This document shows, one piece after another, positions 30,636-62,795 of a stretch of DNA of 64,000 bases. The DNA is from Phytoseiulus persimilis (Eukaryota > Arthropoda > Arachnida > Mesostigmata > Phytoseiidae): contig CM075102.1 in the NCBI GenBank assembly GCA_037576195.1, forward strand, positions 32,360,745-32,424,744. The letters run 5' to 3'. Positions within the stretch are counted from its first letter, which is position 1. Each line of letters begins with the position of its first letter. Below the pieces are notes generated by a model that worked only from the letters and a program-made list of their open reading frames with translations, did not search any database and had not been told where the DNA came from. Made by a program: the position numbers and the translations under genes.

Positions 30636-33600
30636 TCAATTGAACAGCACTGATTCTGGATCTTGATTTGCCAATAGCTTGATGTGCCGAAGAACATCTT
30701 TCTTGGTGATAATGCCCAAAATTTTACTGAAAACCCATCGAAACCTTCCTTTAGGATAACTCACTAGAATGTCGGTATTATTTCGCGAGCGTTAATCTTT
30801 AGCTTCCGCTTGAAGATACTGGAACCTACCCGTTCTTGGTGACCAGAGTCTGCCGAAGACCCAACTTTCGGAACATGTCTATCACCGTTTCCATCGGGGT
30901 GTGATCAGTGACAGTGATAGGGGCCAAGTCGACGATCCTTGAAAGCTTCAAGGGCGGACCTTCATTCCAAGCTACAGTTGAGGTGTTGTTGAATAGAACT
31001 CTGGACGCTGAGTTTACTTCTTGGCTTGCGAGCGATGCTGGAAGGAGCGATTCGAATGATCTCTTGAAATACTCACATCGAAACGCTGCGATGGCTTGCA
31101 AGAACGGCCTGGATCCGAGCGAGCTTCGAGAGACCAAAATGCGAATCTCGAGGTTGGAATGTCCCGAAAGGTTACTCACAGAGTGCGATATTGAGATCTC
31201 TGCGGAGAACAAATCCAACGAGACTTGGATTATCATCGGACGTGATGAGGGGGTAGCCATTGTGACTAGTGGTGCGAAGTAGGTCCTCTGTGGAGAACGA
31301 GAACGATTCCGTTGGAGCATCTTGATGGAATATTCCAGAACAAGTAGTTCAGCCCAGCATCGGGGAACACTCGATCGAGCCCGAGGTAATGGAGATCCCA
31401 ACTCACCAACTTCGCCAACGGTCTGACCTTCCAAAGTTAGACAAATTAATCTGCCTTCACCCCTCCGCGGACGCATAACATCATGGGCTATAGTTGTGTG
31501 TTCGAACTCCTCCTTGGCGTCGAGGAACGGATACCCGTTCAAGTTGATATGAGCATCGTATATGCCTTCTTTACCGAGGGCGTCGGCCACCCACTTAGCC
31601 GCCATGATGGACGTCATCAACGGAACGATATAATTCACGGATCCTGTTAGTTCAAACATGATGACCACTAAGGACACTGTAAGAACAGAAGTTCATCAGC
31701 ATCGGGAATATCTATCAATTCCCAGTGCTCCGATCTCTGATTCGCAATCAAAATCTTCATTCTATCGGTTTGGCGTGAAAAAAGACTGACCCGTCATCCT
31801 GGTTACTCCTCCCAGGCAAGCAGCCGCACCCACCATGGCATAAAGCCCCGGTGTGATGCACTGTTGCCCAGTGGAGCACATTCCTTCGAAAATCCACCAC
31901 CGAGGATTGTGATAAACAAGCTGTTCCATTCCGACGCCCACTATGCGGCCAGTGATGGCACCTGGAATGGACGGGCAATATTGGACTTGGAGTTGAATCA
32001 TCTCAATGGATGAGCGTTGATGGATCGAGAAGATCACTCACCGAAAGCCAAACTGGGTATGAAGATACCAGCCGGTACTTTGATTCCAAACGTGAAGACT
32101 GTGATCAACATCTTGAAAACAAGAGTAAATCCGAGGCTCCACAACGATTGGTATACGCCTGGTCCAGCTTCCGCGTTCTTCACGGGCAAATTCACGTTGG
32201 TGAAGTTGCGCTCATAGTCGCTGAAAATATTCGGGAGGAATGGTATCGCAATCGCTGCAAGTATCCTGCTGGAATGGGCTATACTGCATCAATAGCAAGC
32301 AGCGTGAACTGTTTCCGTTGGTGTTCTATGAATGAGAGAATCTCACCAAAGGCTAGTCAAGTCTCCGATGCCGCATTGCGAGAAGAGAATCTTGATCAGA
32401 TCCGATGTGTTCATTCGAGTGAACTCGTTCGGGAAACTCAGCACGGCCGTGATCAGGGATACGCAAAAGACCTGAATAAGCGGATAAAAATCGGCAGGAT
32501 CAGTTTTCTTGCAATGACGAGGACCTCGAATGCCTGGAAAATTTCCTCCCAGATCCGTGGTCCCCGGGTAGACTCACCTCAACGATGGGGTATTTGCCAA
32601 GCTGGGAAGTTTTCCGGAATCGGCACCACCGCAGATTACATTTAACGAAAATAGTCGCCAATACACCTCCCATCACTCCCAAAAACAGGAAAGGGACCAA
32701 CTCAAAGAAGGACCACGGCGTCGTGTACTGAAAAGTGAAATCATTATTTGTAGAAGCATGAAACTTCAAATCCAGAGTTTCGGACTGGACTGAGAGGCCA
32801 GATCTTCTCAATCTTCGGGGATCATCTCTGCCCGCTGTATGGGCCGTTGTGGGGCATGCAGAGGTCGTTCTCACCTTGACATAGAACATGACAAGATGAT
32901 CGTTGCCGAACGGATTGATACTCCGAAGGACCGAGGCAGCTACCAGAGCGCAGAAGAACGACCGCCACAAAGTTTTCAAGGGGAAGTAATAGGACACCTG
33001 CCAGTAGAAGACGTGTCATATCGAAGAATATCGAAGAATCGGAAAGTATGCGCTGAAGAGAGGACCAGGACTCTTTACCTCTTCTAAGGAGAACAGGACG
33101 CCTCCAATAGGAGCTCCAAATGCGACGGAAACTCCAGCTGCAGAGGCTGCCGATAGTATTTCTCTTTTCTTAGCTTCATTACGTCCATATTTCGGGAAAA
33201 TGTATGCCAAAATGTTGCCGATACAGCAGGCGACATGGACTAAAGGACCCTCTTTCCCAAGTGACAGACCTGCCGATACGGCAAGCACGAGGCCAACCTG
33301 GAGAATATAGTGGATATGATGAGTTGGGCGGCAAACCTCCATCGTCTGTTGTGAGACCAAAGGAGTGTTCCGAGTGAACTTCAAATCGCACTTATAAATT
33401 CAAGCCGAGCTCACGGATTTCACAATGAGTGTCCATTTTCCGAGGTAGCCACGGATGATGAAACCAGAGAGGATCGTTTTGATTTCAGGAATGCCCGAGC
33501 CACAGGCATACGGTGCGAATGTGTGCACGAGCATCGCAGCGATCGAAGCGAACAGGACGCTCCAAAGCACGTAGAAGAAATATGAGATCACGTAAAAGCC

Positions 33601-40400: not shown

Positions 40401-42911
40401 CCCGTATCCATGGCAAGGCGTCGTCCGTGAGCGCGCGAAGCTTCGCCGCCGTGCCAAAAATCACTACACACTACTCAGTGTACCCCAGGGAAAAAGATCC
40501 TCGATGGAAGGGTGAGTACTTCAACTTGGCCGTCATTTCATGAGTGCATTGGCCGCATATCTCGTCCGCCTCTCAGAAGGTTCCGACTAACGTTTATCTG
40601 CATGTCAGACATCGATATGGAAAGAGTCTCGGACGATGTCGACGTGGTCATCGTCGGTGGTGGACCGGCGGGCATGTCTGCGGCCATTCGTTTGAAACAA
40701 GTGAGGATCCGCGCAATCCTGATGTTTCGGATGTATTCGGAACCTTGCCTCAAGCGAGCTGACGATCTATGGTCCCTCATTTTCAGAACGCAGAAAAAGC
40801 CGGCAAGGAGCTCCGAGTGTGCGTGATAGAGAAAGCATCTCAAGTTGGTGGTCACACACTATCTGGCGCATGCATCGAAACTGGGCCTCTAACAGAACTA
40901 TTCCCGAATTGGAAGGAGCTGGGTGTGAGTGGAGTAACCTTACATGCTATCGATATATTTCAAGGGATTCCGCCTCTTTTCTTTCTATTCCTTCTGGTTC
41001 TCGTCGACATCATGAGTCTTCTTTCTGAATTGAGAGAGTTCCAAACTGGAAAAGAGTCCATCGCCATCCATTTAATCATCTACAGGCCCCCCTAAACACC
41101 GAAGTGAAGGAGGACTTGTTCTACATCTTGCGCAACGATGCCAAGAAAATCAGGATTCCAATCGTTCCTGGTTTACCGATGAACAACCACGGGAACTATA
41201 TCGTACGGCTTGGAAACGTCGTTGCTTGGCTCGGTGAGCAGGCGAAGCAGCTCGGTGTCGAGATTTACTCAGGGATCCCCGCTTCAGAAGTCCTATATGA
41301 TGAACGAGGGCAGGTGTCCGGCGTTGCAACGGGGGACGTTGGTGTAGCAAAGGATGGGTCACCGAAAGTGAGTCTAATATGTCTTTCGCCTCTTCCTCAC
41401 CAAAGGAAAAAATACTCCGACGATTCATTTCGAGACAGGACTGAATTATCGATTTCCAGGATAACTTCGAGCGCGGCATGGCGTTGAACGCGCGGTGCAC
41501 TATAATCGCTGAAGGTTGTCATGGCCACATCTCGAAGCAGTTGTACGACAAGTTCAATCTCAGAGAGGGCTGCGAGCCTCAAACTTATGGAATTGGTCTC
41601 AAAGAAGTCTGGGAAATCGATCCCAAGAATCACCATCCCGGGCGAGTGGTGAGCTGTCACATATGTTCGTTACAACCCGAAGATTGAGAGAGTTGAGTAT
41701 TCGCTCAGTGAGTCGAGTATCACTGATGGCATTTCACCCGTCATGTATGGTTACAGGTTCACTCCGTCGGTTGGCCCTTGGACAAGCTCACATACGGCGG
41801 AGCCTTCATGTACCATTTGGACGAGGGACCACTGGTGGCCCTCGGACTCGTTGTCGGTCTCGACTATACGAATCCGTATCTGTCGCCCTACCGGTATGCT
41901 ACGGACGAAGTCTCCCTCCGATCGTGCTGAGTTTATCAGTCGAATTTCGATGACATCTGGAATGATTCCTCTCCAATTACACTTCCAGAGAGTTCCAGCG
42001 AATGAAACATCATCCAGTTTTCGCTGAGACTCTCAAGGGTGGAACAAGAATCGCTTACGGAGCCCGTGCACTCAACGAAGGCGGTCTCCAGTGCATTCCT
42101 AAGCTCTACTTCCCCGGAGGATGCCTCATCGGATGTGCGCCGGGATTCATGAACGTTCCGAAAATCAAGGTGGGCATACAACGGATGCTGTCCAATGAAT
42201 AACTGTTGCGGCCCAAGAGAATCGCCTGCAGTTGAACCAGATATCAGACGCAGCTGTTTTTCGCAGGGAACTCACAACGCAATGCGAAGTGGAATCATAG
42301 CGGCGGATGCAATCACGGAGAAGCTACTTGCTCAAGAGGAAGGCGTGGTGACTCCAGACAACTATGAACACAATTTGAAGAACAGTTCAGTCTATAAAGA
42401 ACTCAAAGCGGTCCGAAACATCAGGCCATCGTTTCACAACAAGTTGGGTCTCTACGGCGGCATGATGTACACAGGGATTTTCTACCTTTTCGGCCGCGGA
42501 TTGGAGCCTTGGACCCTGAAGCACGGAGGCAAGGATTCTGAGCGACTGAAACCAGCATCCGAGTGCACTCCGATTGAGTACCCGAAGCCGGATAATGTTC
42601 TATCCTTCGATCTACTTTCCTCGGTATCTCTCACGGGAACCAACCATGAGGACAATCAGCCTGCCCATTTGACTTTGAAAGATGATTCGATCCCGGTCGA
42701 GCGTAATTTCAAAATCTATGACGGACCGGAGCAACGCTTCTGTCCTGCGGGCGTCTATGAGTACGTGCCCAAGGAAGACGGTGAGATGAGACTTCAGATC
42801 AACGCACAGAATTGCATTCACTGCAAAACGTGTGACATCAAGGACCCATCGCAGAACATTAATTGGGTGACCCCGGAAGGCCCTGGGGGTCCTGCATATT
42901 CCGGAATGTGA
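40401..42911 (+). CDS. ETFDH: Electron transfer flavoprotein-ubiquinone oxidoreductase (ETF-QO)
   Basis: Eight exons: 40401-40511, 40609-40700, 40787-40924, 41086-41367, 41460-41648, 41757-41893, 41989-42169, 42267-42911. They give 591 codons in one frame, including the stop. The enzyme passes electrons from ETF to ubiquinone at the mitochondrial inner membrane. Visible landmarks: the pre-FAD segment [17 protein letters not shown], the FAD fold [20 protein letters not shown], the [17 protein letters not shown] block, [31 protein letters not shown] (membrane-contact region), [10 protein letters not shown] and the 4Fe-4S ligands [15 protein letters not shown], ending PAYSGM. All expected cofactor residues are present. 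The first exon shown begins two bases into a codon at an acceptor (TTACATTCCAG). The start codon and mitochondrial presequence must therefore lie in an upstream exon I could not locate. Confidence 0.97.
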
Positions 42912-43410: not shown

Positions 43411-44589
43411 CTAAACGGTTTTCCTGGCGGTCATCACTCTGATAATTGAGCCGAGCCCTCCATGGGCGAATGCTTTTTCATGCCAAGCGAGTAAGTGTCC
43501 TGATGATCCTTCGCTTGGTGACTCGAAGCCTCGATAGATATACTTCATCAAAGTGTCGATCAGCTCCGGTTCTAATGACTGCACTAGGGCGTCCATCTCT
43601 GAAGTGCGAATCGCCAGCATGCACTTCATAGCGAGAGCGAAAGCCTTGTCCTGTTTGAGGGCAAACACACATCAGTTTCGAATCGACCTCAAGCAAGATA
43701 TGCGGCTCTTCTATCCACAGTTCTCATCTAGAGAATACTCCGTGTTTGAATAATAACTGAGACACAGAGAGGGAGGAGGAGGATGGGGTACAGTTCATCG
43801 TTTTGAACCAGGAGCCCAGCTTCCCTTCGAGAACATCAACTTTGATGAGATCAGAGAATCCGACGAATCAAAGTGTGGGTTCACAGTGCATACTGCATAT
43901 TAACCGCGCTCATCAAGAGTAGGTTGGGATTCATTCTCATCATTCAACGAACCTTTACATCGAATCCTTTTGCGTTGATCGGAGCATTCCGGAGAACTAC
44001 CTTGAGCGCTTCTTCTGCCTTCGACGTGTTGGAGAGAATGATAGTTAAGGGATATTGTGCATTGTGAATTGTTTCATACCTAGAGAAATATGGAAAATCC
44101 GAACTCTGGGAGGGTCTATTCGGTGGTTGACTCCAGGAATCACGCCGACGCACAGGGAGGTTTCCCCATGTCGAAGTATGCGAGGTTTGGGTTAGAAAAG
44201 TGAGAATGGTCCGGCACCAAGATTGAACGGAAATGTGGAAGACTCGGAAATCGAAACGATGCCGCACTGAGATCCGTATACGGGAGTTCAGTTGGAAGGT
44301 GACTAATACCGGCGACCCTTAGAACGAGCTATGTCCGGGAGAGATTTTCTATGCAGAGGCAATACTGAGTATGAATGGCTGGAAGTTATACATTTTCGTT
44401 AGAGTTTTGAGTGGCGGTGCCACGCAGGGTAAAAGGATATCCATTGAGAAGAGCGTTCACTTCGGCCTCATCGGGACCTTGGTGGGCGATTTCTGCGGAC
44501 TCGCCGCCGCTTTCCTCCACGTAGAGATCATCGTTGTACTGGTCGATATCCAACTTCCGGAACGTTGAAGAAAGGGTGTTCTTCGCCAT
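43411..44589 (-). CDS. ARPC5: Arp2/3 complex subunit 5 (p16-Arc)
   Basis: Three exons: 44424-44589, 43953-44014 and 43411-43650, encoding 155 aa, close to the 151 aa of vertebrate ARPC5. The start MAKNTLSSTFRKLDIDQYND matches the family N-terminus. The middle exon reads EALKVVLRNAPINAKGFDVK. The last has DTLMKYIYRGFESPSEGSSG, the highly conserved WHEKAFAHGGLGSIIRV segment and the terminal TARKTV. ARPC5 is the small helical subunit of the seven-protein complex that nucleates branched actin. Start choice: the ATG at 44589, since the upstream codons are not ATG. The gene converges on ETFDH, with about 500 nt between the stop codons. Confidence 0.96.
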
Positions 44590-44599
44590 CTCCAACCCT

Positions 44600-46600
44600 A
44601 CGACACAGAAACAGAGTCAAATGAACTTTTCGTGGCAACCGGAATAACCAAATCTGGAATTCGATCAAGTGTGGTGGAACAGACAGTATGACTGACAGCA
44701 GGGAGCTGGAACTTAGATGAAGAACTCCGCCCCACAGAGCGCGAAGCCGAGGTTGAGGGTGAGACGACACGGACCCTCGATTTCTCGCTTTAGACTGCCT
44801 CCTAAGCTGTCTCGAACTCGGTTCCTCGCTATGCTGGTGATTGTCGGACCCCGGATTCTAAGGACCAGCTCCTAGGACCGTCTCGGAGCTTGTCAAGAGA
44901 GTGATCAGTATGGCGCGAACTCGGGGACGCACAGGTATGCTGCACCCTTTTCTAGGCTCCCGTGTTCCGGCGGTGTCGCACTGTATCTAGTCGCCAGCGT
45001 TGTCACTCAGAGCCGGTCTGCGTCTGTCTTCAAGTTGATTCATGCCTCTTGAGCCCCGTTGAAATTTTCGGCCTCGAATCCAGCGAAACTGTGGCCAATG
45101 ATGGTGAGGTTGACATATCTTATAACTGCGGTTTTCCCTCCTGAATATAAAAGATTCGTTAATCGGTGAGAGAGAATGTCCCCTAGACGCGTTTGGCGCC
45201 AGATCGCGGCTCTTCCCCGAGAGGCACTCTCAAGTTTAGAACGTTGTCGTCTCCTCTCAGTGTGTGTACCAGAGTGGTGTAGAGCGGAGTGGAGGAGAGG
45301 AGAGCTCTCATCAGATAGAGCTTTCGTAACCAGCTGCCTCTCAGGACGGCTAGGATGGGTTTCGGAAAGACCACGCATGCCATCGTTTGCAGAGTTCCTG
45401 AGAGTTACTGCAAACTCACCAGTATAGTTACAGGAACCACGAGCACAGAGAAGGTGAGTTGGGAGTCAAATGAAATTCGAATGCAAATTTCAATGGTCGT
45501 CGAAGTTCCTTGCGCTTGACAGTGCCTCTTCCGCGCTCACATAGCGAGCGACTCATTGTCCGCACTGAATGTTTTGATGCACGCAGTGGATGACAACTGA
45601 GAAAATGTCCCGCAAAGTTAGCTCCCAAAACTCTAGAAAACTACGGAGTGGTTCAAGAGGCTGTCTTCGAACTATCTGTCAGCGCTGTAACAGGTGTCTC
45701 CGAGCGACCGGGCCGATGGAACAATCGGAGCTCTTGGTTTTTCGGTTGCGAGCTCGAAATCTTTTGAATTGGACATGTGTCATGGAGTGCAACTTCAGAG
45801 ATAAATCGCACGCATACCGTCATGACTTTGCCCGCACTCGACGTGGTGGTCTGTGCGCGAATCCGACTCATGCTATTGTTTTTCTTTCCGTGACGCCGCA
45901 ATAAGTGCCGCTTTAGCGGTGATCCTAAAGAGGCCTCTTGTAGTCCCCGCTGGATGATTCAACAGGAATCACAATAAATGTGCAAATATTTCCCCGTCAA
46001 GGTTATCTCGGTATGAATTATTATTCCTCCATTCAACGCCAAGATGCCTCTGGCTCAATTTACGCGTGGTAGGTGAATCCTCGAGCTGGGCGGACAATCG
46101 GTCATGCCTGTACCCTCATGTCGCGGCGAGTTTACTATTCGGAATCTCTGTTGGAGATATTCTTCGAATGTTTTGACCGCAGCATGAAGACGCTGGAAGA
46201 ATGTTTTGTCTCTGGGACTTGAGCAGTTGCTGGACAGGGCAGTTGTCCTGTGTTGACCGACGCTCTGAAAACCCGGGCTCGTGTTCGTGGGTATTTCTCG
46301 GAGTTTGGGGATCTAATGTGCGAAACGCTTGGGCAAACATTCAGGCAACTGTGCACAATTATCTCGGAGAACGTCTCTACGTTGGACGCAATCCTCGGGA
46401 TGATCCATTTACAAACAAAGATTGTAAGGCTGCAGCTTCGTTCTGGAGCTCGAATCTCGACCCAGTGTTTAAGTCGTTCGACTTTTTCTCCATGGCCTTG
46501 CACAACTCTCAACGGGCGTTCTTCCCTAAACCTATGTCAGCGCCCGAGAAGAGGATCTCTCGAGTTTCAGACAGTTCCCAAGCTAGTCGTCATTGGATTC
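44600..46600. other. Intergenic; DDAH first exon probably here
   Basis: No complete gene is seen. On the plus strand near 45865-45890 the frame reads NPTHAIVFLS, resembling the (A/Y)THA(I/V)V start of DDAH proteins, before a GTGACG donor-like site in the phase needed by the exon at 46604. The codons before it do not look like DDAH, so I do not assign it. Confidence 0.35.
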
Positions 46601-46603
46601 CAG

Positions 46604-48740
46604 GCGAGAAACGAGCATCATGGTTATTGCGAAGTCTTACGCAGTCTCAACATCGACGTGATCGAATTGCCTTCGGACGAACTTTCCCCTGAGTGCCCTT
46701 TCGTCAACGATTTAGCAGTAGTAGCCAATGGAACAGCGCTCATCTGCAAACCTTCTTCTCCACAACGACGAAAAGAGGTGAGCTCTACGGATGACGTTCA
46801 ATTCTTATTCACCTACCCATAGCCTACCAGTATGCTCCTGAAACAGAAAGGTGCCAGCTGTGCAGGAACGAGTCATGGTCTCGAGACCCGAATATAAATT
46901 TCTCAGTTTAGACATTGTTGACGAAAACGTCAAGTAATGATTGACAGGCATCACATACCTCTTCAACGGAGGGGAAATATCTCCACGGCATCGGGAGTTC
47001 GTCTCTGCTCGACTTGTTTCCATACAGCTTCCTTGGCGCATCTGGAACGCGTCCACTTTCTGGACGAGTCGAAGTCGTGCGTCGAGCAGTCAAAGAACGT
47101 TGGTTGTAATCATCTAGGGCCAAGTCCATGAGGGGAAGTCGAAATGAGAAATTCACCCTGATTCAAGGATGCTCTCAAATGACCAGTTTTTTTCTCAGAT
47201 GGACTGTACAGATATTTCGGATCGATTGGAAAAGCGACAGTAGATTTTCCAAAGATATATCACGGAGCAGCTTTGACGTTCCGACGTATCCGTTGTCATT
47301 TCTTGAATGGTTGCAATGGATGCCATTCTCATTCTGATCGAGCTAAGCTCCTAAAACAAAATATACCCTGCGTCAGGTTGACGATGGATCACGCTTTACT
47401 GCTTCTCGAAATGCGCTTGACTTCCATGTCGAATTAACTACGAGCGTGACCCACGATTTCCCACCCAATACACTCTAAGGAGTTCTGGTGCAGCTGGAAT
47501 AAATTTCTGCCGTCTGGAACAGGGCGCTTGAAGTTCAGGATGAGCATCGAACTAACTGTGAAGGGAATAATTGCGACTTTCTCGCGAGCCCGACGTGACG
47601 AGCAAACATTCCTAGCGTAGGTGATACGAGCTCGGAACTACTTCAAAGAAATGGGCGTGCCGAGCAGCTCCAGGGCTGCATTTTCTCCGCAAAGTCCGCA
47701 TCCCCATGGGGAATCTCAGCTATTGGCGCGGGAGCGTGCAAGAACGCTGTTGCGTGCGAGATCTACTTCGCTCCTGAATATTCTCTAAGCGGAAAACTCT
47801 TGACGCCTTCCTCAAGTATGGGAACGTTTACAGGTGGAGCTGATTCGGAAAACTATTCAGAGGGAGATTGGAATCCCCATGGTAGAAATCTCAGACCCTA
47901 GCGCCATCATAGAGGGAGGCGACGTTCTCTTCACGGGAGAAGAGTTCTTCGTAGGCTTATCGCCTCGCACAAACGAAGCCGGAGCCAGAGCCCTAGCCGC
48001 CGCGTTCCCAGAGTTCCCAACAACGCCAGTCAGAGTACGTCCAACGGTTCTGTAGCAAAGTAGAATTCCGAAAATCAACTTCCTTGAGGAAGATTCACTA
48101 GGCATTCCACTTGCTCAGCTCAAGTGAAGCTGATATAGACTGGACGTTTCATGAATCCTCGTAAAAGCATTCCGCTAAACAACCTCAGGTGATGTGCAAA
48201 GATCCGATGAAGAGCGTCTTGTCCATGGCGGGCCCAGGAATAATCTGCGTTTCGAGTTCGAGAGAGGCACAAATGATGAAGAAGGTAGGGCTCATCTGTG
48301 AGCTTCGAAATTGGACAAGAGAGGTTCGATCAAAACTATTGCACCGTTCCACCCCCACACTCTATCAATTCGCAGGAAATCGAACGAGAAGCAACTTTCC
48401 AATATCAGACGGTAACAGTTCAGGACGACAAAGCATCCAATTGCGTTTTCGCGAACAAGACACTGATTCACAGGTAAGGCAGTATCTCAAAACTTCCGAC
48501 GTTCCGATGAAGCGAAATAATCCCCGTCTGACGGGCCAAGTGACGTTTCGAAATTCCGATGAACTCGTTCCTCGAAAATCCGATTCTATTCACCGCAGAT
48601 CTGAATTCCCTACGAGCAATCAGGAATTCGTCCGAAAAATCGACTACCCCCGCATCGTGCTCCCACTCACGCACCTGTCGGCGGTGAATGTCGGTCTCAC
48701 CAGTTTGGCTATTCTCATCGACAAACCGAAGTGCTTCTGA
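46604..48740 (+). CDS. DDAH-like protein with altered catalytic residues
   Basis: Five exons: 46604-46777, 47834-48034, 48189-48284, 48376-48473, 48599-48740 (237 codons with the stop). The N-terminal exon, about 40-50 aa, is not found. Family blocks are clear: SLNIDVIELPSDELSPEC, PFVNDLAVVANGTALICKP, SPQRRKEV, EGGDVLFTGEEFFVGLSPRT, SMAGPGIICVSSS and TVQDDKASNCVFANKTLIHR. DDAH hydrolyses methylated arginines to citrulline and dimethylamine with a Cys-His-Glu/Asp centre. Human DDAH1 has His173 in GLHLKSFCSMAGP, and here the segment is KDPMKSVLSMAGP, so Pro sits at the His position. Human Cys274 lies in LLTCCSVLINK, and here it is GLTSLAILIDK, so Ser sits at the Cys position. The substrate-binding half is conserved. 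It is therefore probably not a normal hydrolase; calling it a pseudoenzyme is inference. Confidence 0.9.
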
Positions 48741-49968
48741 ATATATTCTTATAATTGTTGATATCCACTCGTTTCCCGTGTGTTCCGAGTTTGAGCGACG
48801 GCATCGGAGATCGTACGTATGATAGACGTTACTTCCTCTGGTCCCATGTGGAAATTAGTGAAACTACCGGGAATAGGGGGGAGGCTTCAGGGATATCGAG
48901 GAAGTCCGACTCCGCCGGAAGAGAATTGTAGGCGTACTACACCAAGGGCGCGACGAACAACTCTCCAACAGCTCGACGGAGCGAGCTGCCTGGGAGTCAA
49001 GCTGATGAAAGAGTTACTATTTCAAGTGTGATCCCCTCCTTGTGCTAAGTCGGGAAGCCGGCCCGCATACACTCTTTGAGAACCGTTGAATTCGGCAACG
49101 AGACGCGTTCCAGCACCCCGTGCATAAACTGAATCCTCTGCTAGGGATTCGTGTACTATATTCAAGCTTCCATTTCCCTGTGCCTAGTTGTTGGGCGAGT
49201 TTCCGAAGATGGAAGGCCTATTCACGCCACCGGAAGATTCTCGCAGTTCGTCGTGGTTGTTTATTTTTTCCTAAGATGAATCGAGCATTTTTGTAAGGGA
49301 ATAGATGTTTGAGAGACTTTGTATCAGATGCTGGCGATTCCGGAACGATTCTTCTTCAACGAACTCCCTCAAAGGAGGGAAGATGTGCAGTTTTACACGA
49401 GAAATTGTTCTCACGTGATCGATTTCTTCGTAAGAGGGCCTTCTTCTTCGAATCGGAAACTCAAGCTCCAGGTCATGCCATGGATCGACCTGCCCTTCGG
49501 AAAACGAGATGAAGGAGTCAAGGTTCAAAGTCGTGATTAGTATGCTCCTGTAGTCTGCCTGGAAAGCCAAGTCCAAGTTGCCCTTCGGCAAAACATGCCG
49601 TTCAAGCCTCCAGTGCTTCTCCGAGGCGCTGCTTCCACGATAAAATTGTGAGAGAGTCGTGAAGCAATTCAACTTCGAACACAACATTCCACGTGCTTAG
49701 GTATTACTGGTTATCGGTCTGTTTCTCACGCAGCTTCTCGAGCTTCGAATGTTCTAATTCGACTTCGGAGAGAGCTACGGACTCGGACTGAATGTGACCG
49801 CACCCGAACGGAACTCTTTCGTTGATCGCAGTTACGAGAAGCCTCACAGCAGCTCTCATTCCATGGCTCGTCATCGTGAACTCATTTCCAGAGCTCTGGA
49901 AGCTCCCCGGTTCGAACCCGCTTATCGAGCGCTCTTAATTTCTGAGTATTGTGCTGTGCTGGCTGGAC

Positions 49969-49986
49969 AGAGAGAGAGAGAGAGAG
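49969..49986. repeat. AG dinucleotide repeat, 9 units
   Basis: A perfect (AG)9 microsatellite lies in intergenic DNA. Confidence 0.85.
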
Positions 49987-51074
49987 TGGTCCCGCTATGT
50001 GCATATTTATGCGGAATGAATGCCTGTAAGATGGGTAATAAACGTTGTACTTGAGTGATCAGTTGAGTTTTCTATCAATAGGCCCGACGCAGAGTTTCTG
50101 ATCGAGGATATCGAAATTGCGGCATGCGATCTCAGCCAGGTGAGCTTAGAATGTCTGAAGACCGTAGTTAACGCGGAAACCTGGAAGTCCGATGACGAGA
50201 ACACGATGAGGAAAGCGGGAATCCAGAGCATGAGCGAAAACTGCATCACACGCTAGAGGCTGACTAGTTGATGACTAATCAGCTAACGTTACGCATTCGA
50301 TGCTTGTGCGGACCATTGTTGTCTCTTGGTGCTTGCGGAAAGCCCGAACGTTCGGTGTCTTCACAGTAATGACGGATGTATTATCAGGGGACTATTAATA
50401 GGACCGGGAATCTCCCAAGCAGCAGGCTTCCTCTAGACCTGTCAACGCACCAGCGCATCCATAACCCTACTCTAAGCCATATCGTGATTATATGTGGAGT
50501 GGCTGCATTCTCCACTTTGCCTTATCATCATTGCCTCCATTCAGCGATTCGACCTGCGACTCAAAAGTCATACAATGCGGTAAGATCTGAGGCTGTTGGT
50601 CGATGGGGTCTGGCCCCGACCCTTGTTCGACCCTGACTATAGCTTGAAAAATCTCTGCCAGGGAATGAAACACCCGAGAACTTTTCTCAGAGTGACGACG
50701 TGAACGGAAGATTCGGCAGATCGAGCGTCCGCCTGAGGGATCGACCCTATCGCTTTCGCTCTGACTTCCCGCTGTATACAACGTGAATGAGTCCATGTGG
50801 AGCACGTGTGCTAAAATCGTCCTGCACCGCTCGATGTCTCTCGGCTATTCGGTCGGCACCATGAAAAGCTCCTCTGGACTGCATCCTTGCCCTCCTTCCT
50901 CAGTCATACACGGGATACCACATGATGAACAATCGAGCAATCGTAGACAAGACGCCAACTGGGAACTTGTTTCTTCTCCCAAGTTTGGCATAGGACCGCG
51001 ATTATCCCCTCATCCCCGGCATCATACCCCTCTCTTCTATGCCTGAATCCATCAAAAACCTGACCGACTTACCA

Positions 51075-51080
51075 TTTATT
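51075..51080 (-). terminator. Candidate poly(A) signal for spartin
   Basis: TTTATT on the plus strand reads AATAAA on the minus strand, about 185 nt past the spartin stop codon. Confidence 0.4.
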
Positions 51081-51265
51081 CTTTGTCTCCAGTTACCACT
51101 AAGAACAACGGTGTGTACATCACATATTACATGAACTCTATGACGAAATGACTGACTCTGAAACTCTCCAAGAAGAGGATATCTGTCCATATATCGGAAG
51201 TTTCTGAACCGAAGGAGCGAACATTAAGATCACGACCACTACCAACCATACAATTTCTGGTGCAT

Positions 51266-53689
51266 TCAGTTATCTCTTCTCATTGGCTCAGCTCTTCGAC
51301 CACCTGGGGGCTCCTCGACAACTAAGTTCGATGTGTTCTTATTGACGTATTCCTCAAGAACCGCTTTGCCGGTGTTTTTCGCCGTCCTCTTCGCAATCCC
51401 TCTGACTCCCAGATTCGTGACGTTGTTTGCTGTCAAAGCAAGGTTTCCAACGCTGTACAAAGCATCTCCGACGGCTTCTCCGGCGTCCCCGCCGTATCTT
51501 GATGAAAACGCAATATGAAGGCATCGTTAGATAATTATCTTACAAGTAGTCATGCAAGGCAAACTTGATCCGAGAAGCTCAGAACCGAGCGGGACTCAGC
51601 TGTGGAAATCAAATGGCCTATCCAACTCACTTATGATGAACCAGGGTGACGGTGTTGGTTGTGATGCTTTGAGCAAGCACTTTGGCCGCATTTTCCAACC
51701 CCATGAAAACCTTGCCAAAACCAGTCAATCCGCCTCCCGCTATCAAGAGAGCGTCGTTCAGGGCCGCGTTGGTTTGTACTCCCCCGATAACCTCAGGTTG
51801 CGCTATAGTCTTCGCTAGCCTCCGACCCAACGCCATGGTCATGTCACCAACAACGCTCACCATGAACCTGTGGGAATAACTCTCGATTCTTTTTCAATAT
51901 TCTAAAAGAGTGCTGCGTCAACGAATCGGGCAGAGCGTCGATGAGAACAGCTGGACGAGGAATTCTCAACTTGGGGGACGGAGTCCCCAGTCGCAGTTAG
52001 TGCCGCGAAGGAGCTCACCCGGTCACTTTGCACGTGTAGTGCGTCGTGGTGCGGGCAACTTTAAGACCCGTTTGCACGCGGGGATCCACCATGTAAGCTC
52101 TTTGTTGAGGAGTTAGCCTTTCTCGGAGTTTCTCCGCTCCGTAGCTCAACGCACTTGAGGTCACCTGAGCACCTTTAACGAGGCCTCGACTGATCGCTTC
52201 CGATGCTGCAAAGTAGGTTGTCGTTTATTATGCTGCCGACGCACTCTCCGAGTCGTTTTTCCGGAGTTGTCGCAGGGCTGTCGCCCGCTCACCTGAGACG
52301 ATTCCATCCGATACCTTCTGTCCCAGTGTAACGTCCTCGAGATCGACTTCGATCTGAGGCTGTTCCTGGAACGCTGCATACTCTTTCAAGAGCTCGTCCA
52401 ACAAGTTTCGATAACTTTCAGGAACATCAGCGCTCAACACGATCGCGATGTTCGCGGCGTTTTCAGACTGGGTTGAAATCTCGGGAAACACGTATCTAGA
52501 GTCGGGGAGGGAGCTCTTAGCCGGAAGTCTGAACGGGACATGGAGCTACGCAGTGGTCTTGGAAATGTAACATCGCCATCTGCTTGGAGGCTGTAACCCA
52601 CGATCCCCAAAGCACGAAGGGAGAAATATACGTACGCGCCATAGCCGGTTTTGAGCACAGGTGATTTTTTCGGGACAAGTGGATACGTAAAATCACCAAC
52701 TTGGATCCAGCTGACTGTTTGCGGTGTGATTGGCTCGTAGGCTTTGCTCAAAGTGAGGATTCTCAGCTCCGTGGCATCGCATTCTACTCGAACTTCATTG
52801 CCCGCGCTGATGTGGAAGACTTGAACCCCGAATGAGATTTTGAGCAGAACCCGAGCTGACATTTGCATCACGTCCGGGACGTTTGGAGGCGGTTCGGGGA
52901 CTGACCCATCATGATTCTAGAAGTTGGAGGGGGCCGATGTCAATTCGAAATGTAGACGAGAGCAGATTCGCACCATTGAGTGGAACAGCCGCCTCTTCAG
53001 ATTCTGTGTCGTGTAAAGAATCTTACCGTGGTTGTGTCGACTGAGGTATCCGAATCTGATTCCATTGCTTCGGAATAGCTCGGGGGAAGCTCCGAATTCA
53101 GTGTGGGATACAACGCGCCGCTCGACGATCCGGCCCCAGTGGACGATTCGTGTGCGCGAGCTTCCCCCACTGCCGTGCTGTACGGCGGCGCAAACTTCGG
53201 AGGGTTCTTCTCGCTCGACAAGGCGTAAATTCGTGCGTGCGCCTATTTATGGAATCAGAGAAATGAAACGACTTCCCATGGGTTGACGAGGCGTCTACAG
53301 GATTATCCAGTTCATTTACTCACGTCACCCCGGATCATGACCATCTTTGTTTGCATATCGCGAGCACAGTCCCATTCTGTTCCTCTGCAGTGCGGAAGGT
53401 CGGTCCGAATATCGAGTCCCGCGTTAAGATATCGTAATCCTTTGTAGTACATTTCCAGCGCCTCACCCTTGAAGGTTTACGAAAAATTAACTCAGAGCCA
53501 GAGGCGAGGTTGCCATAATAAAGGTAAGCGTCTGAATTATAGCTTCCTCACCAATCGTCCTGCTTCCTCGAAACAGAGAGCTTGATCCATGAACACATAG
53601 GAGATTTCATAGGCTTCACGCAACTGGCCAAGCTCCGCGGTGTAATCTGCCGCTGGCTGACGGGTTGCCGAGTGCTCGAGAGCACTCAT
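51266..53689 (-). CDS. SPART: Spartin (MIT plus senescence domain)
   Basis: Eight exons: 53552-53689, 53324-53467, 53027-53242, 52636-52916, 52293-52495, 52019-52205, 51631-51867, 51266-51497. The total is exactly 546 codons, a 545-aa product (human about 666). An N-terminal MIT domain spans roughly residues 15-95 (MDQALCFEEAGRLGEALEMY, YYKGLRYLNAGL). A Pro/Ser linker carries PPSYSEA. The spartin middle domain includes WIQVGDFTYPLVPKKSPVLK and GYGAYVFPEI. The C-terminal senescence domain reads ISRGLVKGAQVTSSALSYGA, EKLRERLTP, GGLTGFGKVFMGLENAAKVL and HHKYGGDAGEAVGDALYSVG. Human spartin binds ESCRT-III and E3 ligases through such regions and works at lipid droplets, endosomes and mitochondria. 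The start ATG (MSALEHSATRQPA) follows a CAG acceptor-like site, so a noncoding 5' exon is possible. Confidence 0.95.
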
Positions 53690-54428
53690 TTCGGAAGCTG
53701 TAACGGATTAATCACAAAAAGGTGAATGATATCGGAGGGATCTGCAGTACGTTTTCCTTTGACAGGAGCTATCATATCCATCAAGATGAAGATGTGCTCG
53801 CTAGCCTTTCTCTAGCTGCGGTGTCTGAGTGTCGGGCTCTTCACCATGACGCCACAATATTCAGAGAGCTCTCGATCCAGAATGTTCACCCGAGACAAAC
53901 ATTGCATCATTGACTCGGTTCCGTTCGGCAAGGTTGTTTTTTAAGAAAACTGAGCTCCTGCATCCGTCAGCGGTAGAGTTCGACAGTTCGGAGCCGTCAT
54001 CGAGCACAAATCCAAATTTGAACCCACCTGGCGAGAGGGAGCGACTCTCAATTAATTGTCAGCCGGGAGCTGATTAAAAAAATGAACTTGGTCACACGCA
54101 AATGTTCTTGCACCAGTGAGTCATATTCCGGCAGCACTTTCTGTTCCTCAGCTGACGAGCAAAGGACCCAGCAGCCATCCCAGTCAGGAACGAAATCTCT
54201 CCCTCGTGTCGGTATCCGGCGACGCTTGGCCATCAACACCAAAAGTGAAGCCAGCTGATTTGGAGAGCTTTTCAGGCCTCCGCCGAATCTCATGAAGTCG
54301 CGGGTGAACCTGCTCCGCTTAGGTTCCTGGGTTGCCCGATCCCCATATTCTCGCTGGTGGGAGGCGGAGTCGTCCGGATGTCTCGCGTTAAAAGCCAATA
54401 AGTGTTTTCAACTGTGTTGAGTGCGAAT
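53690..54428. promoter_or_regulatory. Shared upstream region of spartin and UBOX5
   Basis: The two start codons face away from each other across about 740 nt, so a bidirectional promoter is likely. A minus-strand 116-codon frame (54048-54398) fills part of it; it could be a 5' exon of spartin or chance. No TATA box stands out, which fits housekeeping genes. Confidence 0.4.
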
Positions 54429-55649
54429 ATGAAACCAACGAATTTGTTGAAGTTCTCCCTGGGAACAACAGCGCATTGTGATAAGGTCTGTGTCGATAAC
54501 CATGGACCGGAGAATCTGATCTCTGAAGATGTTACAAGCCGTCAAAATGGGATGCTCTTGGAACACTTCATACGCCCGCCAGTGGACGTTGATTTTCATC
54601 TCCCGTGTGCTTGTGATTTAGCCTACATAAGACTCAAGCTCGCGAAAGCGTCACGCGCTGTACAGCGTCTCCAGATATGGACCCAATTCCCAGGTGACTC
54701 GAACTGGTCGAGAGTCACCACCGAGTTCAACTTGGAGCCCGTGCTAATGTTGCAGTGTGGCACTGTGCTTCCACGGCACTTGACGCCTGACCAACCTCAG
54801 GAATGCCACAGGACTGTTCGATCCATTCGGGGAGTAACCAAACTTCGAATAACCATACTCGGCATGAAGGACTGCGTTGCCGTCTGCCTGATGGGGTGCG
54901 AAGCCATCGGATTGCCTTCTTCTCGAGTCGCGAGAGATCATCCCATTTTCAACAAACTCAAATCATCTTGCGACCGAGCACCATCTCAGGTTCGGCAACC
55001 GCTGGCCAGTCCCAGACTTCAGAACGGCAACCCTGTCAAACGCAGACGCATCGAAGATGCCACTGAGATACCTGAGGAGTTCCTGGACCCCATAACCTTC
55101 TGCCTAATGACTATTCCGGTGGCCCTGCCGAGCGGCAATGCCGTGGATCAGTCCACGTTGGATAAACATGTCGCTAATGAAAATCGATGGGGAAGACCTG
55201 CAAGCGACCCGTTCACCGGGGTCGCACTCACATCAACGCCGATTGTGATAACGGAACTCAAAAGTAGAATCGACCATTTTCTCTCTGCTACCGGGAGCAG
55301 CTCGGGTGTTCGGTTAGCTGATGGTCGAAACGTCTCTAGGTCGGATGTTTCTCGTCTGGTTTCTCAAGCGGCTCCCGTTAGCTTCCGGGAACCCGATGGA
55401 TCTCGCTCTTCAACGAATGTGGAAAACTCGTTTGCTGAGGCTTTATTTTCTGCTCGACGAATCTTGAAAGGAGAATCCGGCGGAAGAGACAATAAGAAAT
55501 GTCCTGTCTGCAACTGCCCCGAGGTTACCTACAAACGACTCTGTGGTCACTACCTCTGTCGAGCGTGCGTTTCCGAGCATGCGGAGTCGAAATGTTCAAC
55601 TTGTGGAAAGCAATCAACTCGGAGTAGCATTATCAAAGTCCACGCATAG
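54429..55649 (+). CDS. UBOX5: U-box/RING E3 ubiquitin ligase UBOX5 (RNF37)
   Basis: A single-exon 406-aa protein starting at the ATG of MKPTNLLKF; the frame is open a little further upstream but without an ATG. The N-terminal half is the UBOX5-specific domain (RPPVDVDFHLPCACDLAYIR, KLRITILGMKDCVAV). The U-box lies at about residues 222-280 (EIPEEFLDPITFCLMTIPVA, DKHVANENRWGRPASDPFTG). The C-terminus is a small RING with CPVC-x2-C, CGHYLCRAC and CSTCGK. The family are nuclear E2-E3 ligases partnering UBE2 enzymes and the AAA protein VCP. It is shorter than the human 541 aa, mainly in the linker. A basic KRRRIED before the U-box could be a nuclear signal. The lack of introns stands out against its intron-rich neighbours. 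Confidence 0.95.
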   Translation: MKPTNLLKFSLGTTAHCDKVCVDNHGPENLISEDVTSRQNGMLLEHFIRPPVDVDFHLPCACDLAYIRLKLAKASRAVQRLQIWTQFPGDSNWSRVTTEFNLEPVLMLQCGTVLPRHLTPDQPQECHRTVRSIRGVTKLRITILGMKDCVAVCLMGCEAIGLPSSRVARDHPIFNKLKSSCDRAPSQVRQPLASPRLQNGNPVKRRRIEDATEIPEEFLDPITFCLMTIPVALPSGNAVDQSTLDKHVANENRWGRPASDPFTGVALTSTPIVITELKSRIDHFLSATGSSSGVRLADGRNVSRSDVSRLVSQAAPVSFREPDGSRSSTNVENSFAEALFSARRILKGESGGRDNKKCPVCNCPEVTYKRLCGHYLCRACVSEHAESKCSTCGKQSTRSSIIKVHA

Positions 55650-56651: not shown

Positions 56652-58863
56652 ATGCGGATATTCGTGCCATTGATTTTATGTGTCTTCGCTCTTACGGAGG
56701 TGAACACTTCGAAGAACGGTGAGAATCCGCTCCGAACCTGTGTCTGACGCGCTATACTTCCAGTGGTCTCCATTCTCAGGGAGCGAGCCCCCGTTGGCTG
56801 ATCTCGAGATGGTCCTGCGTGCCCAAGGAACCAAACGCCTTATTGTTGCAGAACAAAATGCGGAGAAGTCACAGAACCTCCAAACTTCACACCAAAAGAG
56901 GGAAGCAGAGTCGAGTCGCAAGGATTCTCATGAGGCGAAACCGTCTACAACACTGCTCCAAACGGTGGCTTTCACCGAACCGGGGAAACCTGCGGCACAT
57001 CACGTCGGACAGAAAGACAGCCTAACTGAGAAGAAACCGGAACTGGTACCTTTGTCCTACGAATTTTCCTATGGTACGCCCTCACATTCGCATGTCCAGA
57101 ATCAACATCCGAGCGGGATCATAGAAGGACGATACGTTATTCATGGTACGTCACTGGACCAGCGTAATCTCTGTCTCTCGCGTGACGAGCCCGTTCTTGG
57201 AAACAATCGCTACTCTCTGGTTTGTAGATTATTTCTAATTCGATGTCCAACCAAACATTACAGCTCCAAACGGTCAACACAGAACAGTGGATTACGTAGC
57301 TGACGAAGGAGGTTTCCGCGCCGGTGTCGCGACCAATGAACCGGGAACAAAGAGTGCTTCCGGTGGCGGGTCTACATTCGTTTCGACAGCTTCCGAGTTT
57401 TCTACAAATCATGTTGAGCATCAACAACTGGCACCTTTGAGGATAATCGACATTCAGCCGTTCCCTGCTCCATTAGTGCGTTATGAGGTCCTACCGGGCC
57501 ATCCTGCGCCTGCGCCTGTGCAACTCCTACATCCCTCGAACAACATTGAGCAGCTGCCTCTTCAGACTTTACCTCCCCAGCCACCAGCGAGACAACTAAT
57601 CCATTCGCATGTGTTCAGCCAACAGCCTCCGGTTGATCCTCAACAATTCTTGGTGAACCCTGAACAGGTTCCTCTTCTCTCGCCGCCAGACTTTCATGTC
57701 ATAGAGCAGTCTGACGTGACCGGGAACGGCTCTCCGCCGAACCGAATTTCCCTCCCTAACTCGCTCGTTGCCTCGACTCATGCAAACAGTGTCGGGCGTT
57801 TTTCCAACCTGCAAGAATTCAGCCGAGCACCTCCGATCGTTACTCATACTCCTCAGCTCCTTCAGAGACCACCTCCACTTCAGGCACCAGGTTTGTTTAC
57901 GGCACAACCAACGATCCAAGTTGCGCCACCTCCGGCAGTTCAACCTCCTCCGATCGCCCTCGAAGCGCCATCACCGCAAGTCCATTCCGCACCGCCGCAA
58001 ACTCATCACGCCACGCTACATCAGAACTCCCCCAGAGCCCCACCGGAAGTCTACATCGAGAATGCGAGGCCCCAAGCGGACATAGAACACATAACATCAT
58101 CCAGGCCCAGACACCCTGTTGCCAATCCTCCACCGGGAGAGACTTTGAGGCCCGCTAGAATTCAACGGCCCCGACCAGACGTGTTGCAGTCTGCGAAATC
58201 TCTGAGAATGCCGACAATCCAGCCAACTAATGACGCGCAGGTCTTCGAAGTCAAAACCAAAGTTATCGACCATGGTGAGGTTCCGTTCAACAATGACCCA
58301 CGTCAGCTCACGCGTGATTTGCCCTTCAACGGCCCGATACTGGCTGCCATCAAAGTAGCTGATTTCAGTAAGCCCCGGGAACGAGTAAGGAACCCAAAAG
58401 CAATTTTCAAAAACCTTCCACCACCTCCACGACGTCCACCGCCTTCAGCTTTCAAACAATCGCAGCCACTCATATTCCTTGCGGTTCCACCGTCGTCCCA
58501 AGTACCCAAACCTCAGCCTCGGCCCAAGATTCCGGATATTTCGAAACTTTTCGATGCCATGCCTGGGCCCACCGTTCACGACGTTGGTGAGTATCCGTTG
58601 AGTCTCGCTCGGCGAGATTTAATTTTCGTCCTCGCTTCGCGAAAGACCATGGGGGGGGGGGGTCAACCTCTGAGTGATTCCTGATGTTTGTTGCAGCCAT
58701 GCATGAGTTCTTCAATAACATCAAGGAGCATCACCAGAACGAAGTCCAGTTCGTGAAGAAGCACGAGCATGAGTTCCAGGCTCTAGCTTCGAGAGTCGTG
58801 CCGTTTCTTCTGAAGAAGCGGATGAGTGCAGCTCCTCATGTGCACCCTCACCGTTCCCTGTGA
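56652..58863 (+). CDS. Secreted RR-type cuticle protein with long Pro/Gln-rich tail
   Basis: Four exons: 56652-56718, 56780-57145, 57264-58586, 58697-58863; 640 aa. The first exon is a signal peptide (MRIFVPLILCVFALTEVNTS) ending one base into the next codon, as usual for cuticle genes. The chitin-binding RR core lies at roughly residues 118-170: PLSYEFSYGTPSHSH, HPSGIIEGRYVI, then after an intron APNGQHRTVDYVADEGGFRA. It fits the G-x8-G-x6-Y-x-A-x-E-x-G consensus, with Phe in place of the final Tyr. The next roughly 400 residues are low-complexity Pro/Gln/His-rich (for example PPLQAPGLFTAQPTIQVAPP). The last exon adds a compact charged end (FFNNIKEHHQNEVQFVKKHE, FLLKKRM). Typical RR proteins are 100-250 aa, so this is large. 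It is likely a structural or disordered cuticle component. Confidence 0.92.
58651..58662. repeat. G12 homopolymer in a cuticle-gene intron
   Basis: A run of 12 G lies in the last intron of the cuticle gene, about 35 nt before the acceptor, on the transcribed sense strand. Confidence 0.85.
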
Positions 58864-60752: not shown

Positions 60753-62795
60753 CTACCCTTGGAACAACAATCTAGGTCGAAAATCGACGAAGGGTCTTGT
60801 CCTCCCGAATTGTTGCGCCGCGTTGAGGTACATTCCGTCACCGCTGATTTCGAGGATGCGAAGGCGAGGACACAGATTCCCTAACGCTTTCAGGCATTCT
60901 TCCCCGAGGGAGGGGCAGTGCAGTTTCACTTCTTCGAGAAGAGGCTCGCCTCGAAATAGAGTCACGATTCCGGCGTCTGTGATCTCCTCACACCCGAGGA
61001 GAGACATCATCTTCAAACGATGGTGACTGGCCGCTATGCTAGCGAGTCCAATATCAGTCAAGGGACAATTCTCCATCGTCAGAGACTTCATGAAGGGGGA
61101 CCCAAGTCCTTTCTCGAAGGTGAGGTCCGTGAAGCCGACAGCGTTTGTTAAGCGCAAAGTTCTCAGCTCCCCGAAACGACAGAGCTTCACTCCATCAATG
61201 TCAGTGAGCTTCTCCACAGTTCCGAGATCGAGCTCTCTCAACTCCTTGAAGTTGTCACAAATCATTTTGAAGCACTCAGAGTTCAACTCCGAAGAATCCA
61301 AGAGCAATGTTTGTAGATGTCTCAGACCCGTTAAGCTCCGAATCACTCCGGCGTCAACCGCCACGTATTTCAAGTCTAAATATTGGAGCGTCGTCAGCTT
61401 TCCCAAAGTGCACGCGAATCTTTTCGTAAACTTGTGGGAGACGTCACAGCCCCCGATGGTGAGACGCCGAAGTTTCTGGAGTTTCAACAGTGGCGCGAAA
61501 GCTTCATCTGTGAGCGATCCACGATAGTGTAACTCTAGAGTTTCCAGATGAAAAGTTTTGTTGAGGATTTCTTGCAGATGATGATCTTTGAAACCAGAAT
61601 CGTTCCTCCTAAGCACCAGATGACGAAGCCTTGTGCAGTTGCTTATAGCTGCGTACGTGACGGAAGTTGTATACCGACAGTCCAATCGAAGTTCCTGTAG
61701 GCTCTCTGATGATATCTCCAACAATTGAATCAACTCATCATCTTCCAAAGCCATTGTGCTCAAGTCCAGGTTCGTGATCTTCTGATGTTTTTTCAACAGG
61801 GTGGGGAGACGTTTCAAGAAGTCGGATTCTCTGTCGAACTCCGATAGAGATAGCGATGTGATGTTTGGCAATAATCCGAGCATACGATTGAGAATTCCTG
61901 TCGTCAACGGTGAGATGTGAAGCTGCAGGTGTCGCACGAAGCACGACGATTCGCGGGTTTCTTCAACACACATGCCTTCGGGGACTTTGAAATCTCCGAA
62001 AGACTTCTTTGACTCTATCGGGGCAACATCTGAGATCCCTGTCATTAGGAGGTTGAGAACCTGAGTAAATGTTCGGGATCTTGTGTCATTAAGGAATCAG
62101 ACAAAGTACGCGTCCCAAAATAGTTTCGGCGAGACAAGATGATCTGCGGGTCCATTCACATTAGTGGCCGCGCAAATGTACCTCCGCATTCGTTGGCAAG
62201 AAATGGAATCCAGAACTTACCCAGTTTGAGAATTTCCAGCGTCGAACATTGTCGGAGAATAGTATAGAAAACTTCTGGCGACCCGTAGCAGTCGATTAGC
62301 TCTAATTCTCGTAGGTTCTCGGAGACTTTGTTCCAAAATCGTGAATCGTACTCCATCAACTTAGCTGGAACATCGAATGAGAATCATTTGTGATGAAATC
62401 CTCAAATCAATGTCAATTCCAATACCTCTGTGGAGTCGCAGGCTCGTATACTGTCGCCGACTCTTGCTCAGGATGGATCCGACCGCCTCAATCTCGAACC
62501 CTGCGATGTTGAGCCGAATATCTCCCATCAGAGTTGGAGCCGACAGGGCCTCAGCCCAGAGACGACAAGTCAGGGAGCTAGTTAGGCGTTCCGATGGAGG
62601 CAGATGGAGCAGGACCTGCGCCAGAATCTGGAAACGATACGACAGTTTCGAAAAGTCGCCCTCAGTTTCCAGAAAACCCTCACCGCGAGCGAAGTCAGTT
62701 TGATTTCTAACGCCACCATCGTGACAGTGATCAGTCTTCCCGAGGCTTGCCTCGATAATGATGAGCCTTTGAACGAACCTCTTGAGGCAAATCAT
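60753..62795 (-). CDS. F-box/leucine-rich-repeat protein
   Basis: Three exons: 62426-62795, 62221-62364, 60753-62038, in phase, giving 599 aa. The F-box is at about residues 50-95 (FQILAQVLLHLPPSERLTSS, LTCRLWAEAL), followed by a run of FBXL-type leucine-rich repeats (LEILKLG, LRELELIDC, ITNLDLSTM, LQELRLDCR, LETLELHYRG, LRRLTIGGC, LQYLDLKYV, LRELDLGTV, LKMMSLLGCEEITDAGIVTL). FBXL proteins are substrate receptors of SCF ubiquitin ligases: the F-box binds Skp1 and the LRR arc binds the target. The third exon acceptor (AATGACAG) was chosen because the obvious upstream CAG would shift the frame. The ATG at 62795 is the first in frame; a further upstream exon is possible. I cannot name the orthologue. 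Confidence 0.92.

Follow-up and report, generated by a model that had tools for sequence, protein, structure and literature searches.

A DDAH homologue without the catalytic Cys and His in Phytoseiulus persimilis

The DDAH-like gene and its neighbours

The window, that is, the whole stretch of 64,000 nucleotides of Phytoseiulus persimilis DNA analyzed here (contig CM075102.1, forward strand), contains a DDAH-like gene composed of six exons (45355-48740, +) that are separated by five GT-AG introns of consistent phase. The joined exons gave a single frame of 269 amino acids, with the start codon, the stop codon, and all ten splice sites intact. The original prediction had described cleanly spliced exons and an intact frame within 46604..48740, and it was correct with respect to the splicing, the frame, and the end of the gene, as well as to the DDAH motifs it quoted, all of which were found in the DNA as given; its starting point, however, is the beginning of exon 2, so that exon 1 (45355-45453) had been omitted. 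The features of the locus are as follows:

45146..45151, +: TATAAA located 5' of the start codon; candidate only, found by string match
45257, +: TCAGT, candidate initiator, likewise a string match only
45355..45453, +: exon 1 with the start codon, residues 1-33, open frame with a GT donor, sequence MGFGKTTHAIVCRVPESYCK...; contains the flap region THAIVCRVPES, aligned to FGRATHAVVRALPES of DDAH1
46604..46777, +: exon 2, residues 34-91, with ECPFVNDLAVV, AG acceptor and GT donor; in the alignment Asp73 is replaced by Glu and Glu78 by Asn, while Phe76, Asp79, and Arg98 are kept
47834..48034, +: exon 3, residues 92-158, with EGGDVLFTGEEFFVGLSPRTN, AG acceptor and GT donor; in the alignment the position of the triad acid is Glu118, and Gly129 and Arg145 are kept
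48189..48284, +: exon 4, residues 159-190; the position of the catalytic His173 is Pro164 (KDPMKSVLSMAGP), according to the splice model and the alignments
48376..48473, +: exon 5, residues 191 to part of 223, AG acceptor and GT donor
48599..48740, +: exon 6 with the stop codon; the position of Cys274 is Ser258 and that of Asp269 is Asn253 (NVGLTSLAILIDK), according to the splice model and the alignments

A scan for domains, which covered 20 of the window's 93 long open frames, revealed several neighbours. Upstream of the DDAH-like gene and on the same strand lies an exon that encodes the C-terminal domain of electron-transfer flavoprotein-ubiquinone oxidoreductase (42153-42908, +). DUF5918 and a U-box are combined in a long open frame (54402-55646, +), as in UBOX5/RNF37-type ligases. 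The remaining hits were a cuticle-protein domain (57239-58681, +), leucine-rich repeats (60756-62096, -), chloride-channel exons (30829-33015, -), and a cytochrome P450 exon (3503-4111, -). The insect cuticle-protein domain gave 112 matches in the genome, one of them in the window, and none in 14 control genomes.

The 269-residue protein scored above the curated Pfam cut-offs for both ADI and DDAH_eukar (39.8 bits versus a cut-off of 23 for the latter). A phmmer comparison with DDAH1 chains from the PDB aligned residues 2-265 (best E 2.1e-54), and both catalytic positions were aligned identically in all five alignments shown. The best PDB match was 3p8p, whose DDAH1 chain has LTS at the site at which LTC is found in the other four aligned chains. 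Identity to human DDAH1 amounted to 40-41%: two alignments, each with 263 aligned residues, gave 109 and 105 identical positions, respectively. In a phylogenetic tree, from which trypanosome RESC5 was left out, the window protein grouped with human DDAH1 and DDAH2 (support 0.998), at distances of 1.73 and 2.09, respectively. Its terminal branch (1.32) was about five times as long as that of human DDAH1 (0.25), the branch of DDAH2 being 0.77.

Active-site residues

DDAH degrades methylarginine and so normally protects nitric oxide synthase (NOS). According to a review, its catalytic triad consists of Cys274, His173, and Asp127, and its ligand contacts include Leu30, Asp73, Phe76, Glu78, Asp79, Arg98, Gly129, Arg145, Val268, Asp269, and Leu271 (PMC10958460). 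These residues were located in an alignment of the window protein with human DDAH1, Pseudomonas aeruginosa DDAH, and 76 prokaryotic homologues (80 loci were collected with six search peptides, and four, shorter than 200 amino acids, were dropped). The nucleophilic Cys and the catalytic His are both absent from the window protein, their positions being occupied by Ser258 (AGT) and Pro164 (CCG), while the position of Glu78 is Asn68. Furthermore, Asp73 corresponds to Glu63, Asp269 to Asn253, and Leu271 to Gly255, and Leu30 adjoins a gap. Phe76, Asp79, Arg98, Gly129, Arg145, and Val268 are kept, as is the GGD motif, and the triad acid is represented by Glu118, Glu being also the residue of P. aeruginosa DDAH and of 13 of the 76 homologues. 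Among contacts 73, 76, 78, 79, 98, 129, 145, and 269, five of eight are therefore kept, the exceptions being 73, 78, and 269. The protein contains His at residues 8, 38, 39, 222, and 248, the last of which is ten residues before Ser258, and none within 50 residues of Pro164; Cys is found at residues 12, 19, 42, 64, 81, 161, 178, 213, and 268, and not at 258.

Glu78, His173, and Cys274 were conserved in all 76 usable prokaryotic homologues. The invariance of columns 72-79, including Glu78, is partly built in, because the search patterns included PDCVFVED, which favoured Glu78; that of His173 and Cys274 is not, since both lie in none of the six peptides. The window protein differed from the homologues in nine of 22 near-invariant columns, and these changes were concentrated near the three catalytic positions: seven of ten columns within three residues of them were changed versus two of 12 elsewhere (Fisher P 0.027, post hoc). 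When columns 72-79 were set aside, all five near-invariant columns within three residues of His173 or Cys274 were changed versus one of nine elsewhere (hand count). Near-invariant contact or catalytic columns (73, 76, 78, 79, 98, 129, 173, and 274) showed no real difference from the others (four of eight changed versus five of 14, hand count); the changes thus cluster around the catalytic residues and not around all contacts.

The replacement of the catalytic His by Pro and of Cys by Ser, on which the original prediction was based, recurred in every alignment made. Its statement that the substrate-side motifs are kept held for Phe76, Asp79, Arg98, Gly129, and Arg145, whereas it had missed that Asn stands in place of Glu78 and of Asp269, and Glu in place of Asp73. 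The predicted loss of catalysis is strongly supported by the absence of Cys274, His173, and Glu78, and a Cys-to-Ser change in PaDDAH stops ADMA breakdown, as stated in an earlier report (PMC10256801). Judging from its sequence, the window protein is very unlikely to hydrolyze ADMA by the DDAH mechanism, because Cys is replaced by Ser, His by Pro, and Glu78 by Asn.

DDAH and nitric oxide synthase in the genome

The whole genome (181 Mb, 127 contigs) was searched for further DDAH copies. Searches with the Pfam ADI and DDAH_eukar profiles missed even the gene in the window, presumably as its exons score apart, and protein queries were used instead. The window protein retrieved its own six exons and one additional match (C1:50568979, E 0.9, 35% identity), which we took as a chance hit, the human DDAH1 query having no match there. 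Human DDAH1 matched only exons 2 and 3 of the window gene (exons of 60-70 residues, matched at 44-52% identity). Hence, no second DDAH copy, and in particular no active one, was found in the genome with either query.

A genome-wide Pfam search for NOS was empty, which carries little weight because the same type of search missed the DDAH-like gene. With a mammalian query for the NOS oxygenase domain, whose identity as NOS was confirmed by PDB matches, a single weak match (E 0.19) was obtained in the genome, and a fly-like query (an approximate sequence used without a positive control) yielded none. Since the same tool found PRMT1 (69% identity), guanylate cyclases (32 matches), and the DDAH exons, we infer that a NOS conserved to the usual degree ought to have been picked up. 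NOS is therefore apparently absent at the sensitivity used, although an empty search is not proof of loss. The presence of PRMT1 implies that methylarginine is presumably made. With respect to other mites, published annotations name an 'NcNOS' in Neoseiulus cucumeris and give, for Varroa, a best NOS match with 29% identity over 60% coverage, which might be a cytochrome P450 reductase.

Two of the guanylate cyclase loci (C1:29478667-29482865 and C3:28669287-28675628) matched the N-terminal haem-binding and the cyclase parts of sGC beta1; in a genome in which no NOS was found, such cyclases might be sensors of oxygen or another gas. The COX1 query used gave a single match in the assembly, short and with two TGA codons (C3:4032610-4032762, 49% identity), which is perhaps a nuclear copy of mitochondrial DNA.

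Fate of the gene and comparison with known DDAH pseudoenzymes

The best explanation of these findings, which we hold to be moderately probable, is that the locus harbours a complete arthropod DDAH gene whose product became a pseudoenzyme with a non-catalytic task after the loss of NOS. The lineage would have lost NOS at first; ADMA clearance would then no longer have mattered, there being no NOS to protect, and the catalytic residues could have changed without penalty. The propeller fold, together with some of the pocket, would have been kept for a non-catalytic task. By analogy with what has been suggested for DDAH2 and RESC5, this task might most likely be the binding of a partner protein or of a ligand bearing a guanidino or methylarginine group.

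A recent loss of use, with stop codons and frameshifts yet to accumulate, is unlikely, though some observations point to it: the terminal branch is long, nine of 22 near-invariant residues are altered, and, with no NOS found in the genome, there is no known need for DDAH. On the other hand, the frame, the start and stop codons, and the ten splice sites of the gene are all intact, and the host codon preference is retained. The reference for codon choice comprised 2839 codons, drawn from the matches to PRMT and cyclases and from two genes of the window. Relative to it, the synonymous codon score of the frame was 0.031, whereas 3000 synonymous redraws had a mean of -0.053 (sd 0.021) and none of them reached the score of the frame; the signal was weaker versus random window stretches, 69 of 3000 of which reached the synonymous score and 10 of 3000 the full score. 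In a simple neutral model, which assumes neutrality throughout, so that altered selection followed by recent neutrality lies outside it, frame survival dropped to 5% at 0.021-0.044 substitutions per site, and the joint chance of losing Glu78, His173, and Cys274 with the frame intact was at most 2.6e-5; 0.02-0.04 substitutions per site are too few to change all three together. Codon usage and the neutral-decay estimate thus argue against an old pseudogene, and the gene is probably retained, presumably by selection. The view of the original prediction that the gene is maintained accordingly finds indirect backing in the intact frame, the codon preference, and the neutral model, while the branch length of 1.32 versus 0.25 for human DDAH1 speaks against it, fast change with an intact frame being expected of a repurposed protein and equally of relaxed constraint.

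It was also proposed originally that the protein could sense methylarginine or regulate nitric oxide. A sensor or sink that would hold methylarginine, free or in protein, and not cut it seems improbable to us, even though Phe76, Asp79, Arg98, Gly129, and Arg145 are kept, PRMT1 would supply the ligand, and the best PDB match, 3p8p, is a DDAH1 chain with Ser at the position of Cys274, cited for an inhibitor binding mode in the review PMC10958460. However, Asp73 (the alpha-amine contact) is replaced by Glu, Asp269 (half of the guanidine clamp) by Asn, and Leu271 by Gly, and the review names all three among the ligand contacts. RESC5, a subunit of the RNA-editing complex of Trypanosoma brucei with a DDAH fold in which Cys is replaced by Ala and His by Pro, keeps most substrate-binding residues, yet the authors who described it saw no sign that it binds dimethylarginine or citrulline (PMC9980740). 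A role in nitric oxide regulation gains no direct support either, as the NOS to be regulated was not found in the genome.

Catalysis of another kind, on a different substrate or through a different nucleophile, would be in line with the retention of the pocket acid (Glu118, a residue shared with P. aeruginosa DDAH) and of the GGD motif, with Ser258 at the nucleophile position, and with Cys161 and His248, which are near the two catalytic positions in sequence; it is nevertheless very improbable, as no His is present within 50 residues of Pro164 and, to our knowledge, no guanidino-modifying family has a Ser-Pro pair. Least credible of all is an artefact of assembly or splicing, with the true His and Cys lying in an unrecognized exon or masked by a sequence error. 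The six-exon model is a prediction from DNA, but the five residue changes are spread over three exons, and the codons of Asn68 and Pro164 are each two bases away from every Glu or His codon. A check of 44000-52000 for splicing that would restore both residues revealed no alternative exon, either by motif scan (Cys motifs were absent, and of six His motifs one was on the + strand, at 44388, and none was in a DDAH context) or by tblastn with five pieces of DDAH (of 20 matches at E≤5, only the known exons fell below 0.1).

Within the favoured explanation of a pseudoenzyme retained after NOS loss, we tentatively suggest that the loss of NOS released a single DDAH, which converged to a non-catalytic regulator with a RESC5-type His-to-Pro and a DDAH2-type Cys-to-Ser-Leu change. 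If so, DDAH would possess a second function of ancient origin, independent of enzymatic activity, that persists in the absence of NOS. A role of DDAH beyond NOS protection is an open question, raised by the finding that human DDAH2 does not hydrolyze ADMA, as reported in PMC10256801. A genome with no NOS found and with its sole detected DDAH catalytically dead yet intact would separate the two roles naturally and would allow tests of the non-catalytic one without an active background. DDAH pseudoenzymes are already known (human DDAH2 and trypanosome RESC5), and no report of an inactive arthropod DDAH was found among the literature listed on DDAH pseudoenzymes, mites, and arthropod catalysis. 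What is new here is that neither a second DDAH copy nor a NOS oxygenase domain was found beside PRMT1 and guanylate cyclase, and the coupling of the pseudoenzyme to the apparent absence of NOS is the most interesting part.

Like DDAH1, the window protein is a whole-length homologue that keeps GGDVLFTG.EFFVGLS.RTN and SMAGP, together with Phe76, Asp79, Arg98, and Arg145. Unlike DDAH1, it lacks Cys274, His173, and Glu78, has Asp73 and Asp269 changed, and falls short of it by about nine residues within the aligned part. With DDAH2 it shares the change of Cys to Ser followed by Leu (T-S-L-A in the window protein and, presumably, S-S-L-C in DDAH2, whose length of 285 and residues 274-276 agree with PMC10256801), and Glu78 and Asp269 are changed in both. 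According to a model, the Cys position of DDAH2 is Ser274 or Leu275 (PMC10256801). In contrast, DDAH2 retains the catalytic His, which is Pro in the window protein, and has lost Phe76, Gly129, and Arg145, all three of which the window protein keeps. Moreover, humans have an active DDAH1 and NOS beside DDAH2, whereas here neither another copy nor NOS was found.

The window protein resembles RESC5 in the loss of both Cys and His and in the identical His-to-Pro change, a likeness known here at the level of sequence, and differs from it in that Cys was replaced by Ser and not by Ala. The similarity of RESC5 to DDAH came from a structure search, while the window protein is recognizable as DDAH by sequence, and RESC5 is part of a kinetoplastid editing complex, a membership that would not be expected for an arthropod protein. 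The window protein thus combines the Ser-Leu change of DDAH2 with the His-to-Pro change of RESC5, a combination we take as convergence because the protein falls into one group with human DDAH1 and DDAH2 in the tree.
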